Shown here piece by piece: positions 32,001-58,000 of a stretch of 64,000 bases of DNA. The notes beneath the pieces were generated by a model, which worked only from the letters and a program-made list of their open reading frames with translations, ran no database searches and was not told the origin of the DNA. The DNA comes from Tubulanus polymorphus (lineage: Eukaryota; Nemertea; Palaeonemertea; Tubulaniformes; Tubulanidae): positions 9,869,450 to 9,933,449 of the forward strand of contig NC_134026.1 in assembly GCF_964204645.1 (NCBI RefSeq). Reading direction: 5' to 3'. The translations under genes were made by a program, and so were the position numbers. The first letter of the stretch is position 1; every line of letters starts with the position of its first letter.

Positions 32001-35000
32001 TATGCAATTCTCAAAATTAGCAAAAATATCTTTTCATTTCGAGTGGTTCGTGTCCTGTAACATGTGCATGTTATAGGTACATGTAAATGTGATACATGTA
32101 AACTCACCTGTGGTCAATGAACATGTATCTAACAGGGCCATCGGAAGCAAGCATTGGTTGGTAAGTTCATGAACTATGATTAGTTCAGGTGAAATGGCCC
32201 AGGTTCCTCTTATGATAGTGAAAAAAATTGTTGACTTATGCTTAAGAAATTGCACCCTTTCGTAACATACAGCATAAAGAAATGTTATGTTCATTTCATT
32301 TAAAACTCGTATTATCTTCAATTTTAGTTCAATGTTAGCTGTGGCTTTAGATGACTTTTCTGTGGTAATCGTCGACATTGATACACGTCGTGTTGTTCGA
32401 ACATTTACTGGTCATAGAAACTGTATAACCGATATGGTACGTATGTTTTAGTATGGGTTTCAGTGCTGGTACTTACCAAGTGATAATTCAACCGCAGTGC
32501 AGTGTTGATGTACCATATTTTCCCGCGGTTAAGCCGAGGGCAGTTTTTCAGCCTAAAATACATACATGGATTTCTTAATGCTTTGCCCAATAAGCCGAGG
32601 CCCTTCATCAGGAGATTTTAATTCACTGAATTGTCAAATAGTTTGTCTTAATTTTAAGTTTCCTGTGTGTACTATGTGTACTACCGTGTGTCGCTGAGTC
32701 ACTGTGCTATGTATAAACTGAATGTAGGAAAAAATGGCCAAGGAAAAAATGGCTAAGGTATTTATTTGCCTAGGAAAAAATGGCCAAGGAAAATTTTATG
32801 AGAACTATTGACAATGTTAATAAACATAAAGCTTTCAATTTAATGATATCATTTATTTTTCATGGGGCTAAAAACAATAGAATCGGTGTAATGAATTCAG
32901 AAATTTGATGAACTTACATTTAATTTTTATTACATATAATGAATATATCAAGAACTATCATGAAAGAACTATCATGCAAGTGGGCAATGGATAAACTTAA
33001 TAGTGATAAACTTAAACTTAATAAATTAACTAAATTAATATTTCAAAACATCTAAGTAAGCTATTAGGGCACGGACTGTCTTAAATCATCAAAGGTAAAT
33101 GCATTGAAATTGTGTGGTAATTTATATAGCAAACTGGTGTAGTGTCTGATAACATCGAAGTGAGATATGCTGATCATAAATTTACCTAAACTAATCCAGA
33201 AATAGGTCTATTAATCTTAAAAAGTGAAAGGGATGTTCTATACCTGAGACATGTATTTTGATCAGCCAATTATGGCGGAATTGGCAGCCATCTTGGCGTC
33301 ATCAGTACTCATTCGTAGGTGGGAAAAAGTTTTTCCACATTATATTGATACCTAAGCATATTGTGTTATCACAATGTATTGAAAAATTGTAGCTCATAAC
33401 GTTTTCTATGATTTTGGTGAGTTTCAAGGTCATTGCTTTTTGTATATGGCCACCAGGGGGCATTGAATAATACAATAACTTACTATTTCTATATTATATT
33501 TGTACCTACGCATATTTTGTCACCACAATCAATTGCAAAGTTGTAGCTCATAACATCGTCTATGATTGTGGTGAGTTTCAAGGACATAAGTTATTCTATA
33601 TGGTCACCAGGGGGTGTTGAATAGTAGAAGAACTTGGTATTTCCTTATTAGATTGGTACCTAGGGATATTTGGTTACCATGATCAATTGCAAAGTTGTAG
33701 TTCATGACATGTTCTATGATTGTGGTGATTTTCAAGGTCATTGGGTTTTGCATATGGTCAGCAGGGGGCGTTGAATAGTAGAATAACTTAGTATTTCTTT
33801 ATTACATTGGTACGTAGGGCTATTTTGTTACCATGATCCATTGCAAAGTTGTAGTTCATGACATGTTCTATGATTGTGGTGAGTTTCAAGGTCATTAGGT
33901 TTTGCATATGGTCACCAGGGGGCATTGAATGGTAGAATAACTTAGTATTTCCTTATTTAATTGGTAACGAAGCATATTTTGTTATCACAATCAATTACAA
34001 AATCATAGCTGCTGACATATTCTATGATTGTGGTGAGTTTCAAGGTCATTGGTTTTTGTATATAGTCACCAGGGGGCATTGAATTTTGAAATTGTTAGAT
34101 TGTTGAGCATTTGAAACCACTTCCCATGTGGGCATGGTGTCCCTGGACCCCTTGTTTCCTTGGCCATTTTTTCCGTTCACCGTATAAACTCGCTCAGGTG
34201 ATAACTGACACACACAGCCATATATTGTAACCTACATTCGTGCACACGCCACTGACTGTTGAAGCGCATATATACAAATGTACTAGCGCTGCGGTAATAA
34301 ATTGCTACTGTGAAAGAAACTAAATAGATTATTGGTAGTAAATAATGACCTCAAATAAATATGGAACACTCTTGTTGCTTTTGATGATCTTCAGGAGGAT
34401 TAGAGTGACATAGTTCGGGAAGTTATTATTTAGGTCAGATCTTATCCGTTCAATAAGCCAATCATGATATTTATGGGTAAAAATCTGAGGCTAGAAAATC
34501 GGCTTATTAGCCGTAAAATACGGTACATTCCATTATATTGCATTATGGCATGGTGTGTCCTTAGTTAGATTTCACAATGTTTGACAGGTGCTGCTGTCTT
34601 TCAATTGAGATTATAACAGATAATAGTGTTTGTAGTGATCTGAAATAGCCATGGAAAGCCTGAAATAAATTGTAGTTTCTGGCCAGAAAAAAACCTTCAA
34701 TTCAAAGTGTACCCGAAGAAAAGCCAGGGAAAGCCTGAATTTCTCTCAATTTTTGAACAATACACAGTAATTCTGTAATCCTGATGATAGGAATTGTGAA
34801 GAACTGAAGATCTTATGGTACTATATCCGTTACCAATTACCAATTCGTGTTCTTATAAGATTTTACTAATTCCAATTCAATACTAAACCGCTGTCAAAAT
34901 TGATTTCTATTTGATATCTGTATCTGCTATGTGCCTCTGTCCATTTGATGTAAAACTATAACTATTTAGCACTGCTCTGCAGGCTTAAACGCAGTCAGCT

Positions 35001-38000
35001 ATGTGGATTGGTTAATCCCAAATTCTTGTGCCATCTATTTGTACTTACTTCTCATATTGTAGTATTCAAATACACGTATTTAAAAGTATTTTTTATTTTT
35101 TCCAGTGTTTTAGCCCAGATTGTAGATGGTTGATAACAACTTCAATGGATTCATCAGTGAGGACCTGGGATTTACCAACTGGAAGGTACAGTATTATTAT
35201 TCATTGTATGTGCCAAATTTGACAGTGACACTGTGATGTATCTGTAATTGTATATCAATCATCTCTCTGGGGAGAAGTAAAATCCAGATCAGGTTAGCTA
35301 CCCGATTGCCTCCAAGTGTAGAAAGGCAGTGTCAGAGAAGTGTCATCCACAATGATGCTATTTGCGGTGCAAACCCACAACTTGACGTTCCATTAGTTGA
35401 ATGCTTTAACCACTCCCAGACTGCCCCATCTTTATTTATTGGTGTCTAAAGCGATACATTTGTATATACTGCTAGGCATTTTAGAAATTATATGTACCAG
35501 CACTACCAAATAGGTAATCTGCCATTAAGCATTCGAGATTTAAAAAAAATGTGTTCATCACTTAAGTGCATTTCTCAAATTTACAGTAATACCATTTTGT
35601 ATTTCAATACCATGCTCTTTTCCAGACTAGTCGACTGTTTCTTGGTTGATGCAGCGGTAACGAGTATAGCAATATCACCTACGGGTGAATTTTTAGCTAC
35701 TACCCATGTCGATGATTTGGGAATATATCTCTGGTCAAATATGACTTTGTATCATCATACGTCGCTCCATCCATTACCATCTGTTTACGAACCGGTTTTG
35801 GTCGACCTACCAACTACGAGCGCAAAAACAGGTTCGTAAAACCATACCAAAAGTTCCATGTATAATGCATATCCCCTATTTCCGGTTTTAGGTAAAAAAC
35901 AAGTTCCACACACATTGTATATTTGCTTATTGTCCGGCGTTCGTCCATTTGTAGACGGAATTAGATCCAATTGATTTGGGAAATTTTGAAGACGCTTCAA
36001 TGGATTGTCTTGATATTTGGTTTATACATGTATTCACCATTGACACATCTGCAGTGCTTCATCTAGCATTAAAAAAGGGCAGGGTGCTGATTTCAAATAA
36101 GGGCATTTTTGTGCGTGATTCCATTGGAGCAAGGGCACATAATAATGCACTCACGTCTGTTTTAGGGGGAACCTGCAATATTCCCTATTGCATAGAATCG
36201 AGGTACCCCCTACTACGATTGAGGACTAGAAACTATGTTTAACTCTGATTTTGCCATGAGTGACACACTTGACCACAGTACATCCTTACACCTATGCCTG
36301 TCAATGAACAAAAGTTAATCAATAGGTAGGGCTTCCAAAATGATTTGGAAAACCAGTTGCAGACAAAAAAATAGCAGAAATAAGCAATCTCAAAAAGCAA
36401 ATGATACAGCAAAAAAGAGCCAGCAATAGTGTATAGGCCTACATGAAATTGCATATTTTTAATCTTAGAAATATCAAGTTAATTGATTTAAATTGATAGT
36501 GTTAGTGATTGGCAAGTAACTGTTGATAATTGGTAAGCAGTCAGCTTAAGAACACATTATTGCTATTAGGCTACTCAAACTAATTGTCTCTGCAAGTCTC
36601 TCTGTGAGTTCACTGAACAAAGTTTTTCACCTTGTATATATAAAATTTGTCTAATTGTCTCGACAAAAAGATCCAGAGCATCACAATGTGTTCAAAACGA
36701 AACAATCCATCGAATATACACTACCAGCTTTACAACGGTAGTCGCTAGAATGATTGGCAGTAGTTTGGAAGTCAGCCAATTTCCTGGAAACTTAAACTAG
36801 GCAACACGTCTGAGGCACGTTTTCACACATAAATATAACCACTGATCACATGAGCTACTATCATTGATATCATACGAGATATTTCATAGCCGGATACTTA
36901 ACTAACAGCCGGATGCGACGGCTTATTTTGAAAGCCCTGACTCATTACTCGTGACTGACAATGGCAGGAGGGTGGACCTAGAGCAAGTGTTGAGGGCACA
37001 AGGGCGAGCATGGGACACATCTGAAGGGCACAAGGGCGGCTATTTTCGGGGCGGCGCCCCGCCCCTTTATTTTTGGCTAGATGAAGCACTGCATCTGAAA
37101 CCTAAAAATCGGTCCATTCAGAATTCAATGAAGATGGCTGACTGGTAGGCATTGTTGTTTGCCAAATTCAGCATTTTGAAAATTTGTCAATTGCTCTTCT
37201 GAAGGGAAATTTTGAATATACATATTTCATACGTACGATATGTATCCCCTTATAAGGGCGCATGCCGCTCTAGAATAATGATTATGAACAAGTTGTCTTG
37301 TATCAAGCGGTATCACACAATGTCTTACCTTTTTTTCGCACATAGATGAACCAGCTGAGGAGAATGAAGTGCAAATGTATCAAAGTTCTGAATTTAAATC
37401 ACCGCAGCAGATTGCCGATGAGTTAGTGACCCTATCCTTACTGCCAACATCTAGATGGCTGAATCTCTTGAATTTAGATACTATAAAGGTACACAATATT
37501 TCTGCTGATGCACAGTGATTCAATAAACTCGCTTTTACAATGGAATTCATAAAAAACATACATTTATATCTTTTTTCTTTGTTAGAAACGCAATAAACCA
37601 AAAGAACCACCCAAAGTTCCAAAGGCGGCACCATTTTTCATTCCAACAATTCCCGGTCTTCAACCTAAATTTGACATTCAGGAAAATGAGGAAAAAGAAA
37701 AGGTATGTGCAGTACTTATATAAATTGTAAACCGTTTTTCATTATCATAATCACTTATCACAATATTTCATAATCATAATCACAAGATCATAATCACAAG
37801 ATTTCTTTGTTTGCAGTTTGAATCAAAGGTGATTTCAAGTAGTCTTTTATCTTACACTGCATTTGGTAAACTAGTTGAAAAGTCTGTGCCCTCAAGACAG
37901 TGTAAGTACATGAATTTAAATCTATGTTTTTACAATAAAATATGGATATGTTGCTGTGTCTGTAGTGTTGATGTAATCAAACCCTGAAGTCAAATTTTAA

Positions 38001-39163
38001 CCGTGAAGCTGCGTCTTTCCAGTTGCTAATGGCAACATGTTTTCTACACGTGCATTGATGAAAATATTTAACGCATTGGCTGCCAAGTAAAAAATATCGT
38101 GTACTTTGGCTTCAACCACTATTGTACTTCGCAGTTAATCCTCTTAGTGATTCTTGATTTGTTTATATCTGGTAGGCCTAATTGGAAAGACATTGTCTGC
38201 TGGCTGGCAGTGTCAAACAAATCATTTATCCCTGATACTCAATGCTCATTTCTCTGAACAAAAGTCGACTATGTAACAACTCTATTGCCAACTACATGCA
38301 CAAGATAACTCTTTGCTACTACTTGGAAGAATCATAGTGTAAGCAAACACGGTAGGCTTATAAGCTGTATCATTTAGCGTGATGAATTCTATATTTTCAG
38401 ATGGAACAATTATGGCAGCAATGAAGGAGATGAGTCCATCTGCAATTGATATTGAAATACGTTCATTAGCTCCTTTACATGGTGGATCAGTAGAGTTGAT
38501 GGTCGCATTCATCAAATTCCTCAATCACAGCTTTACCAGTAATAAAGACTTCGAACTAATTCAAGCTTACTTAGGCTTATTTCTTAAGGTACGCATAATT
38601 ACATAAATCCTTTGATACTGTATGAGGTTAATGTCATCACAGGCAAAATCTTGTCAAAATTAGTAGAATGTTCGTCTCTTTACATCAAGCAGAATCACCA
38701 GTTTTTTAGTTTTATCCTGGGTTTACTCGATATGAATAGTCAGTTAACTAGGGATCATTTTTATAGACCTGCATAGTATTAACTTTGAATCTGTAATGTT
38801 AAATATTTGAGTTTACCTGCAAGTAAATACTCCGGATGCGGGTTAAAGTTTAAAACTGGTCCTGAAGGAGTACCGATTTTGGGATAAAGTCTAAATGGTT
38901 TACTGAATCGTGTACTGGATTTATGTTTTCAAATACGGTATTTTAGCACTGGTATTCACAGCAGTACCCGTAACAGTACAGAATGAAGAATGAAATCATT
39001 TTTTTCTTTTCAGGTGCACGGAGAAACAATTGCATCAGAACCAGAACTGATCGAAGAGGTTAAATTGATCGTAGACAGTCAATCACGGGCATGGAAAGGA
39101 TTACAAATTCAGTTTAATCAAAGTTTATGTCTGATTAATTATCTTAAAAGTGCTACAGTGTAG
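23010..39163 (+). CDS. WDR36: WDR36 / UTP21, small-subunit processome WD40 protein, complete, 20 coding exons
   Basis: Nucleolar UTPB-complex protein needed for 18S rRNA processing. Exons: 23010-23156, 23457-23484, 23627-23727, 23991-24108, 25617-25804, 26228-26360, 26940-27115, 27428-27548, 28655-28804, 28899-29056, 29573-29684, 30219-30405, 32328-32436, 35106-35185, 35626-35831, 37346-37488, 37586-37702, 37817-37901, 38401-38588, 39014-39163. They sum to 2697 nt, 898 residues; human WDR36 is of similar size. The start MPISGSKIFCGYRA and CVGKSFHTYN match the family. WD40 repeats fill residues ~30-670 (GSKQGSLQLW, WGPVTAISFRT, STWDY-type and RTWDLPTG blades). The Utp21 C-terminal domain follows (ELVTLSLLPTSRW, PPKVPKAAPFFIPTIPGL, DFELIQAYLGLFLK) and the protein ends INYLKSATV. 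A 28-nt microexon (exon 2) is required by phase. The 5' end is joined to an upstream non-coding exon at the acceptor before 22989. The only uncertain junction is the exon 12 acceptor. Confidence 0.97.
24170..24330. mobile_element. dispersed element, second copy of the 9525-9710 family
   Basis: It lies in WDR36 intron 4. It carries GTCATCTTCGGGGTA, an inverted TATTCCTGAAGATGG and the tail GAATAATAGCTCAAGGAAAC, in the same order as the copy at 9525-9710. Confidence 0.5.
26560..26760 (-). mobile_element. SINE-like repeat with B-box-like word
   Basis: On the minus strand GGGCTCAAATCCAAAACC resembles an RNA polymerase III B box, and a GC-rich body lies upstream. I did not find a clear A box, so assignment to a tRNA-derived SINE is weak. 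It lies in WDR36 intron 6. Confidence 0.3.
27596..28210. mobile_element. piggyBac-type MITE with TTAA target duplication
   Basis: The left end is TTAACCCATTAGCACTCA (27596-27613) and the right end TGAGTGCTAATGGGTTAA (28193-28210), a perfect 18-bp inverted repeat. TTAA as flanking duplication with termini starting CCC is the signature of the piggyBac superfamily. The ~615-bp interior encodes no transposase, so it is non-autonomous. It sits in WDR36 intron 8 and contains a further B-box-like word (GGGTTTGAATCCCACT near 28090), suggesting a nested SINE. Confidence 0.8.
28376..28469. mobile_element. MITE-like repeat ending GTGAAACGGGCCCAGG
   Basis: Starts TTGGCCCATTTCGCAGAAC and ends TTTGTGAAACGGGCCCAGG, imperfect inverted ends of the GGGCCCAGTTTCAC family seen at 10234, 13578 and 17900. 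It lies in WDR36 intron 8 just right of the TTAA element. Confidence 0.45.
30530..31760. repeat. old fragments of the CTCF-like repeat family's non-array part
   Basis: WDR36 intron 12 contains diverged pieces of the family whose fuller copies are at 43050 and 47820. Pieces seen are TTTTGGGAAGTTTTGAAGAC with GCTTCAA at ~30556, a CTCACTTAGCACTTAAAACC start with AGTGAGCTATTGCATTC at ~30778, and CTGGCAGCCATTGTTGTTTC at ~31709. The order is scrambled and no 154-bp array remains, so these are older remnants. Confidence 0.55.
32726..34182. mobile_element. MITE with GGAAAAAATGGCCAAGG ends, interrupted by the 154-bp array
   Basis: The left end is made of repeated AGGAAAAAATGGCCAAGG words. Its body (32810-33240) is nearly identical to 44450-44880. 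The right end is TTCCTTGGCCATTTTTTCCG at 34157-34176. Between body and right end sits the 154-bp repeat array. The uninterrupted relative is at 44350-45022. Confidence 0.7.
33290..34150 (+). repeat. array of five ~154-bp units with CTCF-like cores (copy A)
   Basis: Units share ACCACAATCAATTGCAAAGT, TGTAGCTCATGACAT, TCTATGATTGTGGTGAGTTT and CACCAGGGGGC. The core words lie near 33450, 33605, 33758, 33912 and 34066, a spacing of 153-155 bp. Cores read CCACCAGGGGGCA, TCACCAGGGGGTG, TCAGCAGGGGGCG, TCACCAGGGGGCA and TCACCAGGGGGCA. The array ends in GTGGGCATGGTGTCCCTGGA followed by CCCC. It lies in WDR36 intron 13. Confidence 0.9.
35366..35425 (-). mobile_element. tRNA-derived SINE-like unit
   Basis: On the minus strand an A-box-like TGGGAGTGGTTAAAGC is followed by a B-box-like GTGGGTTTGCACC at pol III spacing. 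It lies in WDR36 intron 14 and shows no functional tRNA fold. Confidence 0.4.
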
Positions 39164-39173
39164 TTGAATAATG

Positions 39174-39179
39174 AATAAA
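39174..39179 (+). promoter_or_regulatory. candidate polyadenylation signal of WDR36
   Basis: AATAAA eleven bases after the WDR36 stop codon. A second AATAAA lies at 39729-39734. I cannot tell which is used from sequence alone. Confidence 0.45.
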
Positions 39180-40065
39180 TTAATCAAGGAAATAATATTT
39201 CAATCGAGTGTATTCCTGGTTAATAATGGATTTTCCGTGGTCTTGGTTGCTTATGCAATGCAGATTTCGATTAAATGTTGACTGGTTTTTTAGCCTTCGA
39301 TCAGGGTATTGGGGATAAGTGGAGAGTTTATCTAGTCAAATGGAATGTGCTAGAACAGTAGACCTACTACAGAATTGAGAGACCAATTGAAACCTGTGGC
39401 GACTGAACCAATGGAAGTCAGCATGATTGACACAGTTAAAGTATGAAGAGGAGATCAAAAAATGCCCTTCATCACGAAAATTGTAACGGTTTCACACACC
39501 CACTCATGATTTCATCATAGTTTAATTGTAGTTATAAATATTCCTCCATTCGGAATAGATCAATTTCAAGACGGTAATTTTCGGTGTAGGAGTAACTTAA
39601 AGGTTTAGGCCTATATCTACATAGTGGTGGAAGTATCGGCTTCTTTCGTTCTGATCATCTAATTTTTCATTGCGAAGAAATGCATTACGTGTAATTTTCA
39701 GAAATTACAGTAACCGTACAGATAACTCAATAAACTTGATTTGAGTTAGACTTTAGGAGCCACCCCTGGGAAGTAATGAAATCGGTAACACTAGCATTGT
39801 GTCAAGGTTGCTACACTCTGAATAAGAAAGTGATCATTCTTAACGTCACCTCAAGTTGGAATAGTGTGTTAAAAAAACGATGTCACTGCTTGCAGAAGTG
39901 TATATTGTATGGTCGAATGGTTCTAGCGAGAAGCCGAAGTTTTGGAAACCATAAAACAAAAGCCATAACGTCCGTCTTTTTGGAAGATTCTCCTCGCTTT
40001 TTTGCCCATTTTTTTACATTCTCAATCAAGTCATCCAGTCCAAGTCAGTCAGATTTTGAAGAAAC
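39180..40065. other. WDR36 3' flank and receptor promoter region
   Basis: About 0.9 kb between the WDR36 stop and the receptor start codon, genes in tandem. It should contain the WDR36 3' end and the receptor promoter and 5' UTR. No coding sequence or clear TATA box was recognised. Confidence 0.5.
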
Positions 40066-43000
40066 ATGTCTGCTGCTGAAATAAGAAAACGAGTTGTTAC
40101 ACTGATTGTTCTGTCCTCCATTTTGCCTGGATCATTATCGTTACTGTTTTTGCAAGTAAAACCAGAAGCTCTCGGTAAGAATCGTCTAGGGCCTACTAGT
40201 TAGTTAACTACTAATCCGAATCGTTAGATTTTATTAGATTATAAAAGCTTACCAGGTAAGCTTTTATAATCTAATGGGCTTATATCAAAGCTACTGTAAG
40301 GATTAGGGTTTCGATAGAGTTAGGGTCTAGATAGTCTAGTACCTAGGCGTGGTTCCACTAAAAACGTCTAGGGCGAAAGTGCTCACATAAGGTTAATTTT
40401 CGTCCCTCATTTTGAGGGACGAGGCTTTGAGCGTCTATTTCACCCCTTAAAACACAATCAACTTACCTTAAACTGACTGTTCTGTAATCAGACGGAAGTT
40501 TAACTATTGTTTGGGCATAAATTTATAATCCTAAATAGCTTTTGAAGATCGTAGTAACTCAAAACTTTTGACTAGTCGCCTGAAAAAAATAGTTGAAGTG
40601 AAGCAACATAACAAATATGGCAGCTTTTCGTGTTGCATGATGGGAGGGTAAATTACGGATTCGGACTTAAACTTGCACTGACATTGATGCCAATGCAGAT
40701 ATTCTTGTTTCTTAAGGTGAAATTCACCAAAATTAATGCGTTTTATCAACAAGTAATCACATTTAGAGTAAGGCCTTAGTTTAGAAGGACACATTGAAGT
40801 TTCACATTTTATTAATTTAGTCCGTATTGGAAATCCCGATTGTGGCAATAAATTCAATTCAAATCAAATCAATAAATTCTCCGGTTCCCGATTTAAATCA
40901 TCAAAAACATTATTATAAAAGAAGTTTTCAAAGTCAACAAGGTAACTAATTAATTAATTTAAGTACAAAGGTTTGATTTGACATTAAAATCAGTTGTTGC
41001 ATTGCAAAAAACATGGGTTAACCTCTATATGGCACTTTTGTATGCACACCATGAACATTGCCAATGTAGCAACTTGAGAGTTTCAAAAATGACTCAAAGC
41101 ATTCGAGTCAAAAAGTCAATACCTCTAAAACACATACCGGTATTTAGTTAGTGAGTTTTGATACCACTTTCAGACTTAAGTCACTACTAGGTCCAATGAC
41201 AGAATTCTCTGAAATTTGACTTAAGAGTTAGTATAGCATTGAAATGATTTCATTTCAACTTTAGAGTTATACCTAACCACCAACTGTGGAAGATACAAAT
41301 AAGAATTACCTACGATTTGTATCATATATTTCAGTATTGTCAGTTGAAAATGAGCGCTATCACGGCGGATCATCGTATGTGCGTGAAAATTCGAATCTGA
41401 GATTGACGTGTAATTTGACGAGTAAATACCACGGTTCATCGACTTCGCAAGATCTCATCTTGCTACACAACGATAACAATTTAACGGATAAATTGATACA
41501 CGTTGACAACAACAGTGTACTGTATGAGAAAGCCAACGTGACGTCGCGTGATGCTGGATTTTATTTTTGTAAAATCAGCAACGAACGTACCGTTCAACCA
41601 ATCACGCGGGATATTCGAATTGATGGTGAGTACTTGTTTATTAGGCCTATATTTTGCTCGGATCTTGGTTTCTCAAGACTAACCCTATTCGATTATTCAG
41701 TTAATGTCACAGTGGGATGGTCTTTGAAGTGTTGGCCGCTCACTGTAAGCAGCCAGTGGGACTCGAATCCACTTGTCACTCAGCACTGATAGTGAATGCA
41801 GAGCATTCTCCTTATCCACTGAGCTACCGAGGCTGCTTACGAAATATTGTCTTGTCATCGAACTCTAGGGATTTTGCCGTGAAACATTTGTGCAATAATT
41901 TTCATTTGATGCGAACCAATTTCATAATATTTCTGATTGTTGGGCATTTCAAACCACTTTCCAAGTTGGTTTGGTATCCCTGGACCCCTAGTTTCATATC
42001 GTATTATTAATACCTAGGTATATTTAGCTAGCACAATCTATTGCAAAAATGTAGCTCATGACATGTGGTATGATTGTGTTAGTTTAAAGGCTATTGACCA
42101 TTGTAATAGTCACCAGGGGCATTAAATAGCCGAATACCTTAGTATTTTCATAATGTATTCGTCCATAGGCATATTTTGTAACCGCAATCAATGCAAAATT
42201 GCAGCTTGTGATATGTTCTTTGATTGTGGTGAGTTTTCAAGGTAGGCCTAGTTGTTTCTTAATTTGTTCATCCGGGGGTGTTGGATGTTGACATTTTTAG
42301 CTCGACCAGAGGTCAGTGGAACTGATAAGTTAGGGGGATTATCTGTTGTCATCTGTCGGTCCGTCTGTCTGACCATCAACTTTTGCTTCAATTTGCTGTT
42401 ACGCATGGTGAACGGAAAAAATGGCCAAGATGTACGTACGGGGGTGGGGTACTATTTGAACGCTCCCTCATGGCTCTATGTGTATACAACAAACCAATTG
42501 TATGCAAATTATCCTTGACTAAGGGTACGCGGTAATAATGCCAGAGGCAAAAATGCCATAGGTAATAATGCCAGAAGTAAAAATGCCAGAGGTAAAAATG
42601 CAAGGGGTGTAAAAATGCCAGAGGAAATAATGCCAGAAGGAAGGGTAAATTGATTCAATGATTATAAGAAACAAGCGTATCAAAACTTAAAAACTATTCG
42701 TCGAATTTTTGCTTTGATGTTATGAATTAGAGCATACTAACTCCAAAACTTTTTGGTTTTAATCACCATATCTATTTTTATACCTAGAAATATGCTTTAT
42801 CTAAACTGTGCATTCAATATGTAAACTCAGTGCATTCATTTGTTAATATTCATTAATTTAGAAATGTGTTACATATCACGATTATGTTCCCTTTTTTATT
42901 ACAATTATATAAGAATATGTGTTAATTTTCCAATTTCCAATGATCTCAAAATAAAGATATCAATAATTTCAATGATTTTATTGCAATTATATTAGACTTT

Positions 43001-46000
43001 ATTTTATAGGTTTGTGGTTCTCTTTATTTTTCAAATCAATTTTTCATTCCTTTTTTAGCCCACTTGGGACTTTAGTCCCAGCGGGCTATTGCGTTCACTT
43101 TTCGTCCGTCGTCCGTCCGTCCGTAGATGGAATCCAGTTATTTTGGGAAGTTTTGAAGACGCTTCAATGTAATGTCTTGGTATTTGGGTTACACATGTAT
43201 CTACTCTAGACACATCTTCAGCCCAAAAACTGGCCCTGTCAGAATCGAGATGGCCGACTGGCAGCCATTGTTGTTCGCCAAAATCAACACTTTTTACACA
43301 TTTTTGAACTTTTTGAGGGAAATTTTGAAGACGCTTTGATCAATTACCTTGATCTTTCGGATGTATGTGAATCCCCCCAGGGCCCATCAGCATAACAAAA
43401 ATTGGGTCGATTGGACTCAAGATGACCGTCCTATGACCTTTTTAGTGCCCAGAAATGTCAATTATGGCCCGAATTCTGAGTCCTGTAGCTCCCTACTGGT
43501 TTGCCATTTTTCATTGCAATTTGTGATGGGTATTCTTTGAAAAGGGAAATTTTATAACTGAGACAGGTATTTTTGATCAGCCAATTATGACGCAATTGGC
43601 GGCCATCTTGTTGTCATCAGTACTCATTCGTAGGTGGGAAAAAGTTTTTCCACATTATATTGATACCTAAGCGTATTTTGTTACCACAATCAATTAGAAA
43701 CTTGTAGCTCACAACGTGTTCTATGATTGTAGTGAGTTTCAAGGTCATTGGTTTTTGTATATGGCCACCAGGGGGCGATGAATAATACAATATCATAGTA
43801 TTTCTATATTATATTCGTATCATTGCATATTTTGTAACCACAATCAATTGCAAAGTTGTAGCTCATGACATCATCTATGATTGTGGCAAGTTTTAAGGCC
43901 ATTAGTTATTCTATATGGTCACCAGGGGGCGTTGAATAGTAGAATAACTTAGTATTTCCTAATTATATTGGTACCTAGGCATATTTTGTTACCATGATCA
44001 ATTACAAAGTTATGGTTCGTGACATGTTCTATGATTGTGGTGAGTTTCAAGGTCATTGGGTTTTGAATATGGTCACCAGAAGGTGTTGAATAGTAGAATA
44101 ACTTAGTATTTCCATATTAAATTGGTCACGAGGCATATTTTGTTATCACAATCAATTACAAAATCGTAGCTGCTGACAAGTTCTATGATTGTGGTGAGTT
44201 TCAATGTCATTGGTTTTTGTATATGGTCACCAGGGGGCGTTGAATATTGAAATTGTTAGATTTTTGAGCATTTGGAACCACTTCCCAAGTGGCCATGGTG
44301 TCCCTGGACCCCTAGTTTTAGTTTTTATTATCATAGGAATATGTTCTAAACGAATGTAGGAAAAAATTGCCAAGGAAAAAATGGCTAGGAAAAAATGGCC
44401 AAGGAAAGAATGGCCAAGGTATTTGCCTAGGAAAAAATGGCCACGGAAAAAAGGCCAAGGAAAATTTATGAGAACTACTGACAATGTTGATAAACATTAA
44501 GCTTTCAATTTAATGACATCATTTATTTTTCATGGGACTAAAAACAATTAAAATCAGTATAATGAGTTCAGAAATGTGATGAACTTACATTTAATTTCAT
44601 TATATATAATGAATATATCAAGAACTATCATGAAAGAACTATCATGCAAGTGGGCAATGGATAAACTTAATAGTGATAAACTTAAACTTAATAGATTAAC
44701 TAAATCAATATTTCAAAACATCTAAGTAAGCTATTAGGACACAGACTGTCTTAAATCATCAAAGGTAAATGCATTGAAATTGTGTGGTAATTTATATAGC
44801 AAACTGGTGTAGTGTCTGATAACGTCGAAGTGAGATATGCTCATCATAAATTAACCTCAGAAATCTAATAATCTCAAAAAGTGACATGTCAAAACATCAA
44901 TGCATTTGATTTCTTCTTAGTCAATGAAATGATGGTTAGTTTTCTATTTTATCTTCCTTGGCCATTTTTTCCTAGCCATTTTGTCCTTGGCCATTTTTAC
45001 CTTGCCCATTTTTTCCGTTCACCGTTCTAAACTGTGCATTCATTACGTAAAATCTAGTGAAAATAAGAATTTTCAGGTCCAATGTTAATAAAATCTTCAC
45101 TTAATTTTCCTCATATATCCTTCTGGCATTTTTTCCTCTGGCATTTTTACTTCTGGCATTATTACCTATGGCATTTTTACCTCAGTGGCATTATTACCTG
45201 GATTCTTGGCTAAGATATAGAATGTCTTCATTTGATTCTGTTCTACGAGCATTCGGTTGCTCGTAGGTCTGTGATACTTGGATGCCCTGCTCACTGTTAT
45301 AGTACAGATAGTACAGAAAACTTCAAAGATGTTTGATAGTGATAATGGTGGGACTACATGAAGTAGCCATAGGGAAACAGAAAGACGATGTATTATTTCA
45401 TAATATTCGGACAAATGCTGATGTTCACACCAACACTTTGTGTTGATAAACTCTCAGAAAACTGGTCAAAAATAATTGTTTCTCATCTCCGGTCATAGCA
45501 CACAGGAGACCCCTGTGGTAGCGACCAATCGCTAAAGCCTGGTGCAGATTGGTGTCTTTTTCAAGCGATTCTTGAGTGCAGCATATGGCAGGCGAAAACC
45601 AACAAAATATATATACAATGAAAAATGATAAAATGATGATGTAATGATGATAAAAAGATAGTGAAAAGCTGGTGATAACATAGTGAAAAGATCGTGATTA
45701 GACTGAAGATTATTCAACAATGATGTAGTGATAAAAGATAGATAAATGAACAGATCGAATGGTGAATAAATAGGTGATATGATGGAAAGATAAAATGATG
45801 GATGAAATGTAGGCCTAAATGGGTTATTATGCAAAGGCTGAAGCAATTTTTGTTGTCAAATATAGCCCAATAGGTGATAGAGACAATTATTCTTATCATA
45901 GAACTTTCATGTGTTGTGATGTATTTGAAACCAGGATGTTTTACTTAATCAACAACACTGGCCTGCATCAAAGTTCATATCAAAATATAGCTGCAAAGCA

Positions 46001-49000
46001 GCGATAATGGGTTTTCTGCACAGTCTTAGAATCCTGTTCAACGGTGGATTTCGACAAAGCATTTGATAAGGCACAACATCAACTAACATTACTAACTAAA
46101 CAGGCTATTAGGAAACAGTATCAATGATAGGTCGCCCAAATGGCTCAGCAGTTATCTCTGAACGAAAACTTGTAGCCGAAATCAACGGAACGCCACATTT
46201 TGGAATAAGTCGGTCTAACTAGTGGAGTCACGCAAGGTAGTATCCTAAGTCGTCTTCTGTTTAATATCCTGACAAATGACATACACAGTAACCCAAAATA
46301 TACCAGACCGAGTAAATTTCCAAAACGAACTTAACACGCTGTTCGACAAAAAAACTTAATGTTCCTACAAGAAAATCGAGTTCGAGTGAAAACAATTCAG
46401 TTTGGTTGAACAATACGCTTTTTTTTAACCAAAACTTTCTTCATTCCGACAAAAAAATGTGTTCGAATGAAAAGCTATGTTATTGTTGAAATGAAAATCT
46501 TTTTGTCCCGGCAAAAAAATTTGGTTGAGCGAAAACAATTTTTTCGAACGAATGTTTGAATGAAAACAATTCTGTTCGATTGAACAAAATACTTAATACT
46601 TTTGGTTCGGAGAAAAAACTTTTTACAATATACTTGTTCGAACGAAAAACATAATGTTCTGACAAGAAAATTCTATTCAAATTAAAACGATTCTGTTCGA
46701 TCGAACAATTGTTCGAACGAAAAACCTTTCGTTTGGAAAAAAAAAAAGTTTTTTCAACTTTGTTCTAACGATTTTTCAAATTGGTTCAATTGAAAAGAAT
46801 ATTATTGGTTGGAACGAAATAAATTTTGTTCCGACGAAAGAATTTTCAAGCGAAATACTTAATACTTTTGATCACTGATTCTGTAGGTGTTTTTTGTTCA
46901 TGAAAAATGGACCATAATAAGGGATTTGACCAAAAAAATTCTGCTCAAGTGCCGAGACATGGAAACCTAGAAAATCGAGAGAGTACCGGTATTGATGTAC
47001 AATAATCTAACATTAGTTTACTATTCATCAATAAATGGTCAAGGGCAGATCAAGAATGAATTTCCCTCGTTCATGTTATTTTCTGATAACAATAGAGTGT
47101 CTGAATACACAATCTATGATATCCCCAGTGCAACATTATTTTGTCTCAAAAAGAAATTGTCAGGCTAACCTTTAGAGAAATGAACTGAAACAGTCGACAA
47201 AAAAGGAAAGGTTGGTTCGATTTCCCTTGACTTTGAATAGGCATTTGACAGGGTGCCTCACCAACGTTTGAACGTAAGAAAATATGCAGCATAGGTATTC
47301 AAGGTAAAATTCTAGTTTGGATATCAGATATGACAGCAAGCTGGGAAGGCTATGACTGCTCTGTCTGATGAATATTAAGTGGGGTTCAAGGCTCTGCATT
47401 ATTTCTAAACATTATCAATGACATCTCTGAGAGATTCAAAGCTCCTACCAGCTTGAAACTTTTGTGGATGACCGTAAACTATATGTGGGGATAAAAAGTA
47501 TAGATGACCGTTATAGCATTCCAATCAGACTTAAACAGACTCAATGAATGGTCAAAAAATATGGCAATTATCCTTCAACCCAACTAAGAAATTTTCTATA
47601 ATTCCTGTCATTTTGAATACTTATGAGGCAGCTGTCAGAAAATGTGTTATCGCTGCTTTGCAGCTATATTGAAATTTGTTATTCTGCTCTATGTTTTGTA
47701 GGTAAACTAGTGTTACAGAATCTCGACTGTGAAGTAAAAAACTATGATTCCATGCAGTGTTTCATCAACACTAGCACAACAACAACCAATTGCACATTGA
47801 GTTATAATTGGAGGTAAGTTTTTAGCCCACTTGGGACTTGAGTCCCAGCGGCTATTGCGTTCACTTTTCGGCCGTCGTCCGTCCGTCCATCCGTAGACGG
47901 AATCCAGTTATTTTGGGAAGTTTTGAAGACGCTTCAATGTAATGTCTTGATATTTGGGTTACACATGTATCTACCCAAGACACATCTTCACCCAAAAACT
48001 GGCCCTGTCAGATTCAAGATGGCGGACTGGCAGCCATTGTTGTTCACCAAAACCAGCACTCTTTACACATTTTTGAACTTTTTGAGGGAAATTTTGAAAA
48101 TGCTTTGATCAATTACCTTGATCTTTCGTATGTATTTGAATCCCCCAAGGGCCCATCAGCATAATTTAAAAAATGGGTCGATCGAACTCAAGATGGCCGT
48201 CCTATGACCTTTTTAGTGCCCAAAAAAGTCAATTTTGGCCCGTAGCTTCTACTGGTTCTCATTCGAAGGTGGGAAAAAGTTTGTCCACATTATATCGAAA
48301 CCTAAGCATATTTTGTTACCACAATCAATTAGAAAGTTGTAGCTCATAACGTGTTCTATGATTTTTTTGAGTTTCAAGGTCATTGGTTTTCGAAAATGGC
48401 CACCAGGGGGCGTTGAATGATACAATAACTTATATATTATATTATATTTGTAGCTATGCATATTTTGTAACCACAATCAATAGCAAAGTGGTATCTCATA
48501 ACGTGTTCTATGATTGTGGTGAGTTTTAAGGACATAGTTATTCTATATGGTCACCAGGGGGGCGTTGAATAGTAAGATAACTTCAATTGATCAATTGCAA
48601 ATTTGTAGTTCATGACATGTTCTACAATTGTGGTGAGTTTCAAGGTCATTGGGTTATGCATATGGTGCAGGGGGCGTTGGATAATAGAATAACTTAGTAT
48701 TTCCATATTTAGTTGGTAACGAGGCATATTTTGTTATCACAATCAATTACAAAATTGTAGTTGCTCACATGTTCTACAATTGTGGTGAGTTTCAAGGCCA
48801 TTGGTTTTTGTATATAGTCACCAGGGGCGTTGAATATTGAAATTGATAGATTGTTGAGCATTTGAAACCACTTCCCAAGTGGGCATGGTGTCCCTGGACC
48901 CCTAGTTAGTTTACATGTATTCGCCAATCTGAATTCATGGGATTTCATGTCACATTTTGAAGGCTAGCTTATGGATGTTTGACGCAACTGAGATGTTAGT

Positions 49001-55000: not shown

Positions 55001-58000
55001 TTCTAAGACTGTGCAGAAAACCCGTTATCGCTGCTTTGCAGCTATATTTTGATATGAACTTTAAAATCCATAAAGAGTGATTATGGCCTAACAGTCGATT
55101 TTCCAGAGTCAAATAGGACCATCTGGTCCAGTTGTCCACAGTTTCAAGTAGGTGTAATTGACTCTGTCAACCTACCTCTTATAAAACTGTGTTAACTGTT
55201 GAACAGGATTCTAAGACTGTGCAGAAAGCCCATTATCACTGCTTTGCAGCTATATTTAAAATCAATTTTCTTGTTGCATTTGCGCTGACTACCTTGCTAC
55301 ACTAAAACAGCCATAATTTTTTTATCTATGGGAATTTTACCATCAAATTCTCAGATAATCATCAGAACATATTGCAAAATAGGCTATGTATAGCAATTGG
55401 TAGGATATTCAAATTTTTTTTTAGCTTTTTCTGAAAAAATATGTGTTAATTAGATCACGTGATATACACGATTAACATAGAAAATGTTTGCCCGCTATGG
55501 TGCCCTACTGTGGGTTCAGCACCCCTTTCATAACTCTTACAGTATCTGCATACCTCGAGTGCTAATATTATCACCCAAAATAAGAATATCTGGGTCAGTA
55601 CAATGGGTGGGTATATGGCCAGTGCTGAAAAGGGTTAAATGATCAATCATTGTAGTTAAATGTTAGAGTGCTGTTTTTTGTAGTTCCAGGAAAGAATCCA
55701 ACTATTGTTGGCTATTATTATTTCTCAGCTGGGGCGAATTTAGGAAGTATGACTGTTTTTTTCGAGGTAAGTTATTAACTGAAATAATTTTAAAGAAAAT
55801 TCCATCGGCTCTGTGTTTGCTCTGAACTTTTTTAGAAACTCTGTCGTAATTATTTGATGACTTGTCATTTGTGGATGACCTCCTTTTTAAAACCATAATA
55901 ATTCCTCTCAAGCTTCAAATTTAAAAAATTAAGAACATTTAAAGAAATTTCAAGAATTCAGAAATGCCTGTTTGCCTTCGGCGCTCAGCAGATACAGCAT
56001 GAAATATGGCATGTAAATCTGCTTGTTTTAATTCTGACCCCCTTTAAAAAATTCTAGTGACGCCCCCTGCATTTTGTGAATACAATGACTGGCATTTGTA
56101 AAGTTGTAGAGTCCTACAATTGATATAGACCGATATGGCGTGGCATCCCAGACAAAGATAAATAAAAGGTTCCATAGACAAGTCACTCTATACTTTGAAA
56201 ACCCAAAATCCGAAAGAAAAGTTATGTGAGTAGTGACATTTTGACTCTATGTGCCATTTTTGCATAACATTTTTTATGGCTCATAGAATTGAGACCAAAC
56301 TTCACTGCATGCAAAGTTTTTCTTTCTAATTCTTGGTCTTGTTTCAATTTAAAGGCAAACTTTGTTGGGTAGGTGCTAGTTACTTGACTTGCTTATCAGT
56401 GGTTTGGTTTAACAAATTTTGTATAATTTTCCAGCCGCCACATATTCGCGAAATTCATGCACCGATACATCAGTATGTGGTGAACGTCAGTACGCACGGT
56501 TCAATGCTATTGGCCAGCGATAAAACTTCTTTCACCATAAGCCAGCTCCGAGTGGATAAATCGTACACTGTGCTCATAGAACTTCAAAATAAAGTGGGAA
56601 GGAATGACAGCCTTCAACCGTCATCTTTCTTTATCCAAACTGCTAACCCTAAGTGTAAGTATAAGCTTTGGATCTACTCCCTGCTCTAAAAATATTGAAA
56701 CATAAAATCGGTGAATTTTTTGTTATTATAAAATGCTGCTCATTTGAAAAACTTGTTGGTATTTAGACAACTCAGTTCAGATTTAACACTTTCGCAGCCG
56801 ACTACGAGGTAACTCATAGTTGCGGTTACTCCGCTAATGCCCTCCCGTTACTCCCCCCATTGCCACCACGAGTTATCTCGTAGCTGATTCTTCCTTTTCA
56901 CTGTAAGATATTTGTACTCAGACACACGGGAATGACAGAATTCCTGATTGCCTGAAAATGTGAACTAACTCGGCGTCATTCTCAAAGCTCATTGGTCAAT
57001 TTTGACTATGCAATAGCTAAGCGCCAACCACGAGATATCACTGGGAAACTCCATGGCTGCAACAAATATTTTAAGCGTAATTATACCTTATAAGACAATA
57101 GTCTCATTTCATTCTTGCTTATTTATAAAATTCATTAAAAATAACTCCTGAACTGTAGTGGGTAATATGAAGTTTTCAATACCAAAGTATGAAACGGAAA
57201 CACATGGTTCTATGAGATGATTCTGCCCCTTGCAAGTTAAGGCTCTTTCGCCCATGCGGCGTCCAGCTGTACCATGACACCTCATTAGCGCGATATAGGC
57301 TGCAATTCTTGATATTTCTTAAATTTGGCGTGAGGATTGGAGCAAGTGAGGTGTCCACCCTTATTGAAAATGGATGTTATCGGCCATCAGATATGGCTGC
57401 CAGGGCAGCCATCTTGAATTTCTTGTTAGCGTGATAGAGCCTTCAATTCTTCATGGATCTTCATGAGACCCAGTTAGGATTAGGGCAGGTAAGATGTCCA
57501 CCCTGATTGAAAATTTCGGCCATTAGATATGACTGCCAGGGCAGCCGTCTTGAATTTCTTGTTACCCCAATATAGCCAACAATTCTTGATAAGTTTCGAC
57601 GAATCATTGTGTTAGGATTGGGGTAGGGAAGATGCTGCCACTATTGAAAATAGAGAATTTTTGCCATCGGATATGGCTGCGAGGGCAACCATCTTGAATT
57701 TTTTGTTAGTGCAATACGGCCTATAATTCTACATTGATTTTCATGAAATTTGGTGGATGTGAATACGTTATAAATTCCTATCAGAATTACGGAAACCCCA
57801 AATTTTACAACATATCAGCAATAAAACATATTCATTAGCTATGGCGGCTGATAAGGCACATCCTGCATTTTTGTAGGCGATTCATGATGAAGAGGCTACA
57901 TTTGTAGCCTCTTCAAAATAGGATTGTTTTTAGCAGCATAATTTCATAATAGTATCGCAGATGAGCTCTAACCTTATGAACTAAGGAAGTCGGAACTTGC

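Follow-up and report, generated by a model that had tools for sequence, protein, structure and literature searches.

The window analysed here is a 64,000-nt stretch of the Tubulanus polymorphus genome (GCF_964204645.1, NC_134026.1, positions 9,869,450-9,933,449, forward strand). Four dispersed copies of one repeat, A to D, lie in it and are listed in Table 1, numbered from the first base of the window. TRF reports 154-bp arrays at 33328-34084 (4.9 copies) and 43643-44246 (3.9 copies) and a 152-bp array at 48302-48583 in the region of copy D (1.9 copies), and lists no array for copy B. A unit profile search of the window gives 15 units, five in A, two in B, four in C and four in D (one of the last partial), confirming the four dispersed arrays with a period of about 154 bp that the initial annotation had described. 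The five core words of copy A start exactly 154 bp apart (33450, 33604, 33758, 33912, and 34066), and those of copy C start at 43765, 43919, 44073 (mutated), and 44227. In copy A, the profile matches run from a 5' segment beginning at 33227 to a 3' match ending at 34152. Copy B, the most drifted copy, begins with a 3' end (41935-41991); behind it lie two decayed units, and neither retains the exact core. The initial annotation placed three of the copies within one receptor gene. This placement is plausible: an Ig match precedes copy B, and an fn3 match below the threshold lies at 56330. A likely splice donor at 47814 stands just ahead of copy D, and the two exon pieces flanking this copy have no Pfam match.

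Table 1. Positions of the repeat copies, their terminal elements, and the exact CTCF-like core words in the window
Feature	Position	Strand	Basis
Copy A: HINE truncated at 5' side, five 154-bp units and 3' end	33227..34154	+	TRF, profile matches
Unit 1 of copy A, CTCF-like core CCACCAGGGGGC	33450..33461	+	
Unit 4 of copy A, CTCF-like core TCACCAGGGGGC	33912..33923	+	
Unit 5 of copy A, CTCF-like core TCACCAGGGGGC	34066..34077	+	
Copy B: old diverged HINE piece, two decayed units	41935..42294	+	profile matches
Copy C: HINE, 5' subTIR through CCCCTAG, four units	43058..44315	+	profile matches
Copy C 5' subTIR and its complementary inverted repeat (GCCCACTTGGGACTTTAGTCCCAGCGGGC)	43058..43086	+	
Unit 1 of copy C, CTCF-like core CCACCAGGGGGC	43765..43776	+	
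Unit 2 of copy C, CTCF-like core TCACCAGGGGGC	43919..43930	+	
Unit 4 of copy C, CTCF-like core TCACCAGGGGGC	44227..44238	+	
Copy D: HINE, both ends present, four units (one partial)	47825..48905	+	inverted-repeat and profile matches
Copy D 5' subTIR GCCCACTTGGGA	47825..47836	+	100% complementary to 48873-48884
Unit 1 of copy D, CTCF-like core CCACCAGGGGGC	48400..48411	+	
Copy D 3' subTIR TCCCAAGTGGGC	48873..48884	+	inverted-repeat pair with 5' subTIR

All four copies belong to a non-autonomous Helentron (HINE), which is a rolling-circle element with the arrays at its centre. The terminal anatomy of HINEs and their insertion at T-rich sites are described in the excerpted texts of PMC7492417 and PMC4067079. 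The two subTIRs of copy D are 12 nt long, within the 11-15 bp of HINEs, and are 1,036 nt apart. Beside the 5' subTIR there is an inverted repeat (GCCCACTTGGGACT..AGTCCCAGCGGGC), for which the fold energy in copy C is -18.6 kcal/mol with RNA parameters. Behind the 5' end, direct reading of copies C and D shows runs of GTCC/GTC, and the microsatellites of oyster HINEs are given as GTCY/GTCC/GTCK (PMC7492417, excerpt). Behind the 3' subTIR, the segment GGTGTCC-CT-GGACCCC is complementary at 6/7 arm positions, but on folding it forms a weak stem that is no better than shuffles (z 0.02). TT follows CCCCTAG/CCCCTA immediately on the 3' side in 54/60 loci having that 3' word, TTA precedes GCCC in 102/113 sampled loci, and both ends are present in 52 of these 113.

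The element is dispersed over the whole genome. Searched with up to 2 mismatches, the 268-Mb genome contains at least 1,707 HINE 5' ends (810+897), and the reversed control gives 0. This count and the terminal anatomy bear out the mobile element proposed from the window alone, and the family is fairly recent. A candidate autonomous partner has 248 bp at its 5' end in common with the HINE (94% identity), and this end runs directly into coding frames on the same strand with Helitron_like_N and OB-fold matches. Within the 17 kb read, the partner's own strand contains neither the unit nor CCAGGGGGC; this copy is broken and yielded no 3' end, and the stretch includes a HINE on the opposite strand. 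The strand order of neighbouring HINE copies was considered as a sign of loop-like arrangement and rejected: the 39 runs among 100 listed copies, against 50.7 expected (p 0.013), are due to copies less than 10 kb apart (12/13 pairs on the same strand), and p is 0.10-0.16 after thinning.

An intact array has four unit types of about 154 bp each in the order 1-2-3-4. Each unit type carries one CTCF-type site, as judged by sequence match, and all four sites are on the same strand. The reference word was CCASYAGRKGGC, the CTCF consensus as also given by the initial annotation; it is a consensus word and not a published matrix. With up to one mismatch, it matches the window nine times against 0.98 expected, and 0/100 shuffles reach nine. 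Eight of the nine matches (three exact, five with one mismatch) are within the arrays, and the ninth is in the 5' part of copy C. The arrayed word is thus of the CTCF type, as had been claimed. The chance of finding some exact CCASYAGRKGGC word in a 154-bp unit is about 3 in 10,000 (arithmetic with equal base frequencies), so that, across many element families, a single CTCF-like match would not be astonishing alone.

The exact core CACCAGGGGGC is kept in 7/15 window units (3/5 in A, 0/2 in B, 3/4 in C, and 1/4 in D). The claim that individual drifted copies preserve it is not supported: the remaining 8/15 units have lost it, and even copy C, cited as an example of such preservation, has a mutated core in its third unit (CACCAGAAGGT). 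Genome-wide, exact CACCAGGGGGCG occurs 4,676 times (2,282+2,394; reversed control, 4), and 3,676 of these words (1,771+1,905; control, 0), about four fifths, are followed by TTGAA as in the HINE unit. The word is also found in DNA without HINE matches, in 10/20 isolated places and in further cases elsewhere, though these 20 loci and 12 single places were chosen by hand from listings, not at random. CCAGCAGRKGGCGC, which is of the CTCF type but does not occur in the HINE consensus, is enriched too: it is found 48 times, and a permuted control with its base composition 5 times. Judged by eye, six groups of CACCAGGGGGCGCT words spaced 1,127-2,304 bp apart resemble subtypes of the HINE or arrayed fragments of it, and none reveals another repeat family carrying the core. 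On contig 1, about 5 Mb (0.9-6.1 Mb) are free of exact core words; withheld sequence was considered as the cause and dropped, since two 401-base samples from inside this region contain no N.

CTCF is present across Bilateria, and the host has an ortholog with 11 C2H2 fingers. In fingers 3, 4, and 5, the residues at positions -1, 2, 3, and 6 are identical to those of human CTCF. Three of the four specificity residues differ in finger 6, two each differ in fingers 2 and 7, and fingers 8-11 differ in part too. Taken with the array words, these residues suggest that the host CTCF may bind the HINE arrays.

We compared variants in 278 full units from 88 elements, drawn from 113 loci. Eighty loci are on contig 1 (80 of the 100 listed places, out of 1,707 5'-end matches), and 33 further loci come from a search with a variant of the 5' word used for these, which gave 36 matches; two duplicates and copy D of the window were left out. 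The 25/113 loci without a full unit were not counted, units with at least 30 gap columns were dropped (314 hits to 278), CpG columns were excluded, indels were uncounted, and the core region was set at 20 bp. All loci are anchored on an intact 5' word, and young copies are therefore favoured.

Private variants, found in one element only, are equally frequent in the core (47/4,955) and in the rest of the unit (368/35,182), whereas shared variants are rarer in the core, with 75 carriers against 1,430 elsewhere in the unit. No variant class present in at least six elements falls in the core, compared with 57 in the rest (p 0.0017 in a one-sided Fisher test relative to private classes). The counts are 0 and 28 when the comparison is restricted to columns that do not differ among the four unit types (p 0.013). 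Ranked by carrier frequency, the core window is the lowest of 133 for all units; when the two sets (A and B) are taken separately, it comes second lowest in both, behind a window overlapping the core. The significance is moderate and varies with the way in which shared variants are counted. When all shared classes (at least two elements) are set against private ones, the one-sided p is 0.019 in set A (0.066 for type-invariant columns); the depletion is not significant in set B (0.075 and 0.29) or in the combined set (0.19 and 0.51), in which the core window is, by this ratio, the 12th lowest of 133. Set B by itself gives no significance for the classes in at least six elements either (0 vs 7, p 0.39).

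The segment from the 3' subTIR to the end served as a positive control and has 33/2,436 private variants, 26 shared carriers, and no class in at least six elements (73 elements). The 5' segment from column 30 has 435/46,280 private variants, 1,694 shared carriers, and 69 such classes (112 elements); the set sizes for core, ends, and 5' segment are unequal, and these class counts are thus only roughly comparable. Since private variants are equally frequent and shared ones rarer in the core, the constraint seems to act on the spreading lineage, while landed copies decay neutrally. With moderate support, the core is constrained in this lineage about like the 3' terminus needed for transposition, and the statistics show, at moderate strength too, that inserted copies lose it at a neutral rate. 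The core conservation initially proposed is thus half right: for shared variants the core ranks with the least variable stretches of the unit and evolves more slowly in what spreads, but private variants reveal no difference, and the core is no slower than its background after insertion. TCAAGGTCA, a nuclear-receptor half-site, was ruled out as the conserved feature of the unit, its windows being the most variable, which indicates that not every motif-like word in the unit looks constrained.

The HINE is most likely a selfish element with arrayed, co-oriented putative CTCF sites, but the shared-variant pattern can be read in other ways. The array may be an ordinary functionless, satellite-like one, in which low core variation arises by chance or by sorting of unit types or subfamilies. 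This account is rather unlikely, though it draws on the modest, counting-dependent significance, in particular the combined set with all shared classes, and on the usual size of monomers in oyster HINEs, 140-180 bp (PMC7492417, excerpt). The same size range weakens the near-nucleosomal spacing suggested earlier; at a 154-bp period, neighbouring sites that are both occupied would be too close for a nucleosome to fit between them. The account of a functionless array fits poorly with the high-frequency classes, which are still depleted when type-invariant columns alone are used, with the rank of the core window in all units and both sets, and with the opposite behaviour of TCAAGGTCA.

A slightly less probable account, also unlikely in our judgement, is that the core serves the Helentron machinery, in Rep binding or replication, and resembles a CTCF site by coincidence. 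The core and the 3' terminus are both constrained only in what is inherited, as expected of an intrinsic transposition signal. However, the candidate partner carries no unit or CCAGGGGGC on its strand in the 17 kb read, with the reservation that this copy is broken and its 3' end was not located, and the core word is enriched in host DNA outside the HINE as well. Domestication, by which the host would retain HINE cores as its own CTCF sites, could explain why the genome's exact words are mostly of the HINE form, yet it is very improbable: private changes accumulate in the core at the neutral rate, and more than half of the window units lack the exact word. A few domesticated copies among many would escape detection by this comparison.

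Returning to the reading as a selfish element, we consider it probable, by a modest measure, that the HINE carries arrayed, co-oriented CTCF sites whose core is constrained while it spreads and that host CTCF binding aids its propagation. Binding would help if the chromatin of a copy thereby stayed open and accessible to the Helentron enzyme; alternatively, the benefit may lie in protecting nearby genes from the inserted copy. Until it decays, a new copy would temporarily serve as a strong CTCF anchor, directional and multi-site. More tentatively, and short of probable, the HINE may be a "selfish insulator", a rolling-circle lineage selected to keep four co-oriented CTCF sites, with binding aiding its propagation.

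The element resembles Cg_HINE of the Pacific oyster in having an inverted repeat beside the 5' subTIR, a GTCC-type microsatellite, an array at the centre, a 3' subTIR, and some copies in or near genes; the oyster elements have a palindrome at the 3' subTIR, where the present element has the weak stem (PMC7492417, excerpt). The text of that paper mentions no protein site in the oyster monomers (CTCF, 0 occurrences); two conserved monomer segments are noted there, with the letters given in a figure only. DINE-1/HINE elements of Drosophila and a mite have similar termini, T-rich insertion, central repeats in some cases, and autonomous Helentrons with shared termini, comparable to the candidate partner here, but the excerpt of PMC4067079 does not mention a CTCF-type array. 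Among the matching open PMC literature, titles and abstract openings report no CTCF arrays in Helitrons or Helentrons.

Mobile arrays of host insulator-protein sites are known from the gypsy retrotransposon, whose 12 su(Hw) sites form an insulator with a potency depending on the number of sites (PMC7168160, excerpt). Gypsy differs in being a retrotransposon with another protein, a 350-bp cluster, and experimentally known insulation. The ISY Helitron of Drosophila miranda, a rolling-circle element too, disperses sites used by a chromatin complex of its host, but this is the MSL dosage-compensation complex, not CTCF, and the sites serve the host on a new X (PMC7168160, excerpt). Mammalian SINE B2 and other CTCF-bound transposons also supply a large share of a genome's CTCF sites; they are mostly retrotransposons with experimentally known binding, which is predicted here, and the excerpt of PMC7786948 does not mention arrayed co-oriented sites or constraint in the spreading lineage only. 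A transposon-borne motif is associated with chromatin loops in another invertebrate group, the placozoans, but that Mutator motif lies in the TIR, CTCF is absent in non-bilaterians, and looping was measured (PMC12221973, excerpt).

In mammals, the spread of CTCF sites by transposons is already known, and so is, in flies, an insulator carried by a retrotransposon. The split between shared and private variants suggests that in the HINE the site matters to the spreading element, not to the host after landing. To our knowledge, the reason for which transposons carry CTCF sites can rarely be tested. The HINE family, with its compact 268-Mb host genome and clear CTCF gene, would allow a direct test of whether CTCF aids transposon propagation. 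If the "selfish insulator" is true, perhaps at least 1,000 multi-site, directional, short-lived CTCF anchors have been seeded as a by-product, and the system could show how new multi-site CTCF anchors alter an invertebrate genome.

The 154-bp unit is arrayed four times in the window, and the unit profile finds 15 units there (see the table), spaced by exactly 154 bp in copies A and C. Words matching the CTCF consensus with at most one mismatch number nine, against 0.98 expected; none of 100 shuffles reaches nine, and eight of the nine words lie in the arrays. The initial annotation held that the core, the CTCF-type word carried once per unit, survives where the rest of a unit has drifted. This fails copy by copy, since copy B lacks any exact core (CACCAGGGGGC, present in 7 of the 15 units) and copies C and D include mutated ones.

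The repeats have the anatomy given for HINEs, non-autonomous Helentrons, in the consulted portions of PMC7492417 and PMC4067079. Copies C and D start with a T-run, an A and GCCC, and the first 12 bp of copy D, GCCCACTTGGGA, recur inverted near the element end. Behind the start repeat come its inverted repeat and a GTCC microsatellite. The 3' end carries CCCCTAG, then a T, as well as a palindrome in which 6 of the 7 arm positions are complementary; this palindrome is weak in folding and is the weakest point of the fit. TTA stands before the start repeat in 102 of 113 fetched copies; the 3' word was located at 60 loci, and in 54 of them TT stands directly behind it. HINE 5' ends number at least 1,707 genome-wide (at most two mismatches; 268 Mb, 77 contigs), versus 0 for the reversed word; 100 of them listed for contig 1 span 6.3-23.8 of its 32.1 Mb. 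In the first set (fetched copies and the window's own), 38 elements contain a full unit, and 19 of these show the unit order 1-2-3-4 of an intact array. In a whole-element search, in which 40 of 4,042 candidates were scored, the best 39 besides the window's own copy are near full-length matches at 93-95%, which makes at least some of the family fairly young.

Copy D begins about 5 bases behind a likely splice donor, read by eye, and would occupy most of that intron in a receptor-like gene; the exon pieces flanking it have no Pfam match. Units of 15 bp (GGTAAAAATGCCAGA, AGGAAAAAATGGCCA), arrayed around the HINE copies in either orientation, are perhaps another element with inverted ends.

Positions of the arrays and of other features in the window and the genome (C, contig; L, stretch fetched from the genome)
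Feature	Location	Strand	Remark
Copy A	window 33227..34154	+	5 units
Copy B	window 41935..42294	+	2 units
Copy C	window 43058..44315	+	4 units
Copy D	window 47825..48905	+	4 units, one partial
Likely splice donor	window 47810-47830		GGAG/GTAAG
15-bp-unit arrays	window 42531-42637, 44358-44464, 44954-45016, 45120-45199	both
Second 5' end	C1 near 12.887 Mb		candidate partner
2A-like peptide frame	L125 7505-8260	-	SGDIETNPGP
Clustered non-HINE CTCF-type words	L043, L108, L115, C9:329114-329211		~33-42-bp spacing
Non-HINE core words near contig ends	C1:54022-897911, C2:31638679, C3:181223, 912873, 1564300, 27371483, 27802149, C4:621452		hand-chosen
Non-HINE core word away from ends	C2:8061862		counterexample
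Near-match to CTCF-type word	L001 1283-1295		CTCCAGGGGGCGG
C2H2 frame clusters	C8:11.29-11.62 Mb, C10:3.17-3.35 and 10.90-10.93 Mb		from CTCF search

A possible autonomous partner was found on contig 1, where a second 5' end lies about 14 bp behind a HINE. It shares 248 bp with the HINE at 94% and runs, on the same strand, into frames matching Helitron_like_N and an OB-fold, and it looks like a broken copy of an autonomous Helentron. In the 17 kb read, its strand contains no unit and no CCAGGGGGC, and its 3' end was not found; a four-unit HINE lies on the opposite strand inside the same stretch (L129). A frame behind the candidate 5' end includes SGDIETNPGP, which resembles a 2A ribosome-skipping peptide.

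The core word CACCAGGGGGCG occurs 4,676 times in the genome, versus four times for its reversed control, which has the same composition and likewise one CpG. It continues with TTGAA, as in the HINE unit, in 3,676 cases, and in 84 of the first 100 places listed. Among 20 isolated core places chosen by hand, ten lack a HINE match; these lie in unlike contexts, judging by eye, and C is the next base in five of them. CACCAGGGGGCGCT is present 240 times and its reversed control, which has one CpG more, 0 times; of 12 single places chosen by hand, 11, among them a near-identical pair, are apparently free of HINE words. CCAGCAGRKGGCGC, a CTCF-type word absent from the HINE consensus, occurs 48 times; its reversed control, richer in CpG, occurs once, and a composition-matched permuted control five times. 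The 48 versus five, together with the core words outside HINEs, indicates a preference for CTCF-type words in the host genome itself. Some non-HINE CTCF-type words form small, minisatellite-like clusters, and many of the hand-chosen non-HINE core words lie near contig ends. On contig 1, the places listed include no exact core word from 0.9 to 6.1 Mb.

Constraint was assessed in 278 full units from 88 elements, each compared with the consensus of its own unit type, with CpG columns left out; the core region is 20 bp, TGGYCACCAGGGGGCGTTGA. Changes in a single element (private) are assumed, for the most part, to postdate the insertion, and those shared by at least two elements to have been inherited through transposition. 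Private changes are equally frequent in the core region (47 of 4,955 sites) and elsewhere (368 of 35,182); carriers of shared changes at these sites number 75 versus 1,430. Of the classes found in at least six elements, the core has none and the rest 57 (p 0.0017 in a one-sided Fisher test against private classes); in columns identical across the four unit types, a restriction that guards against exchange between types, the figures are 0 and 28 (p 0.013). Ranked by carrier frequency among 133 windows, the core window is lowest in all units and second lowest, each time behind an overlapping window, in both set A (80 contig-1 loci) and set B (33 loci of other contigs), each anchored on an intact 5' word. 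Some results count against this constraint. For all shared classes, p is 0.019 (set A), 0.075 (set B) and 0.19 (combined), or 0.066, 0.29 and 0.51 against type-invariant columns. By this ratio, the core window is only the 12th lowest in the combined set, whose two-element classes probably begin to include recurrent changes. Set B alone gives 0 versus 7 classes in at least six elements (p 0.39). An earlier count of set A, standardised for base composition, put the core at 0.39 of expectation when all changes are taken (bootstrap 0.27-0.52) and at 0.89 when only private ones are (0.59-1.26). With type-invariant columns pooled over types, it gave 0.38 for shared (0.25-0.53) and 1.05 for private changes (0.40-2.02), the core being second lowest of 133 windows.

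As yardsticks, the stretch from the 3' subterminal inverted repeat to the end shows a pattern as in the core (33 of 2,436 for private changes and 26 for shared carriers, no class in at least six of 73 elements), and the 5' segment a pattern unlike it (435 and 1,694 of 46,280, 69 such classes; 112 elements). The core pattern fits a sequence that would be needed during the spread of the element and unguarded by the host afterwards.

CTCF is the simplest candidate for the protein: the host possesses it, and the core word is identical with the CTCF-type word of the host itself. A contig 3 gene (L001) encodes 11 C2H2 fingers, with exons set by eye. In CTCF, fingers 3-7 would read the core. At positions -1, 2, 3 and 6, fingers 3, 4 and 5 equal those of human CTCF; of these four residues, fingers 2 and 7 retain two each and finger 6 one, and fingers 8-11 are partly different. 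A likely intron of this gene contains a word that nearly matches the CTCF-type word. On C8 and C10, C2H2 zinc-finger frames are densely clustered and could be a family of element-repressing zinc-finger genes.

As far as the portions of the cited papers go, the closest relatives by anatomy are oyster Cg_HINEs (PMC7492417), the closest mobile array of insulator-protein sites is that of gypsy for su(Hw) (PMC7168160), the closest case of spreading CTCF sites is SINE B2 (PMC7786948), and the closest rolling-circle carrier is the MSL-site Helitron of Drosophila miranda (PMC7168160). Among spiralians, a CTCF motif is described as abundant in annelid open chromatin, and squid domain boundaries are reported to have a CCCTC-like motif (PMC10658182, in part). 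Titles and abstract starts of the open PMC papers listed yielded none linking Helentrons or Helitrons to CTCF arrays.

The CTCF arrays may keep a copy open for the Helentron enzyme; alternatively, they might reduce harm to genes nearby. The 154-bp spacing would leave no nucleosome-sized gap between two occupied neighbours, and an occupied array would therefore be expected to form a single open stretch of about 600 bp, which is a testable prediction.
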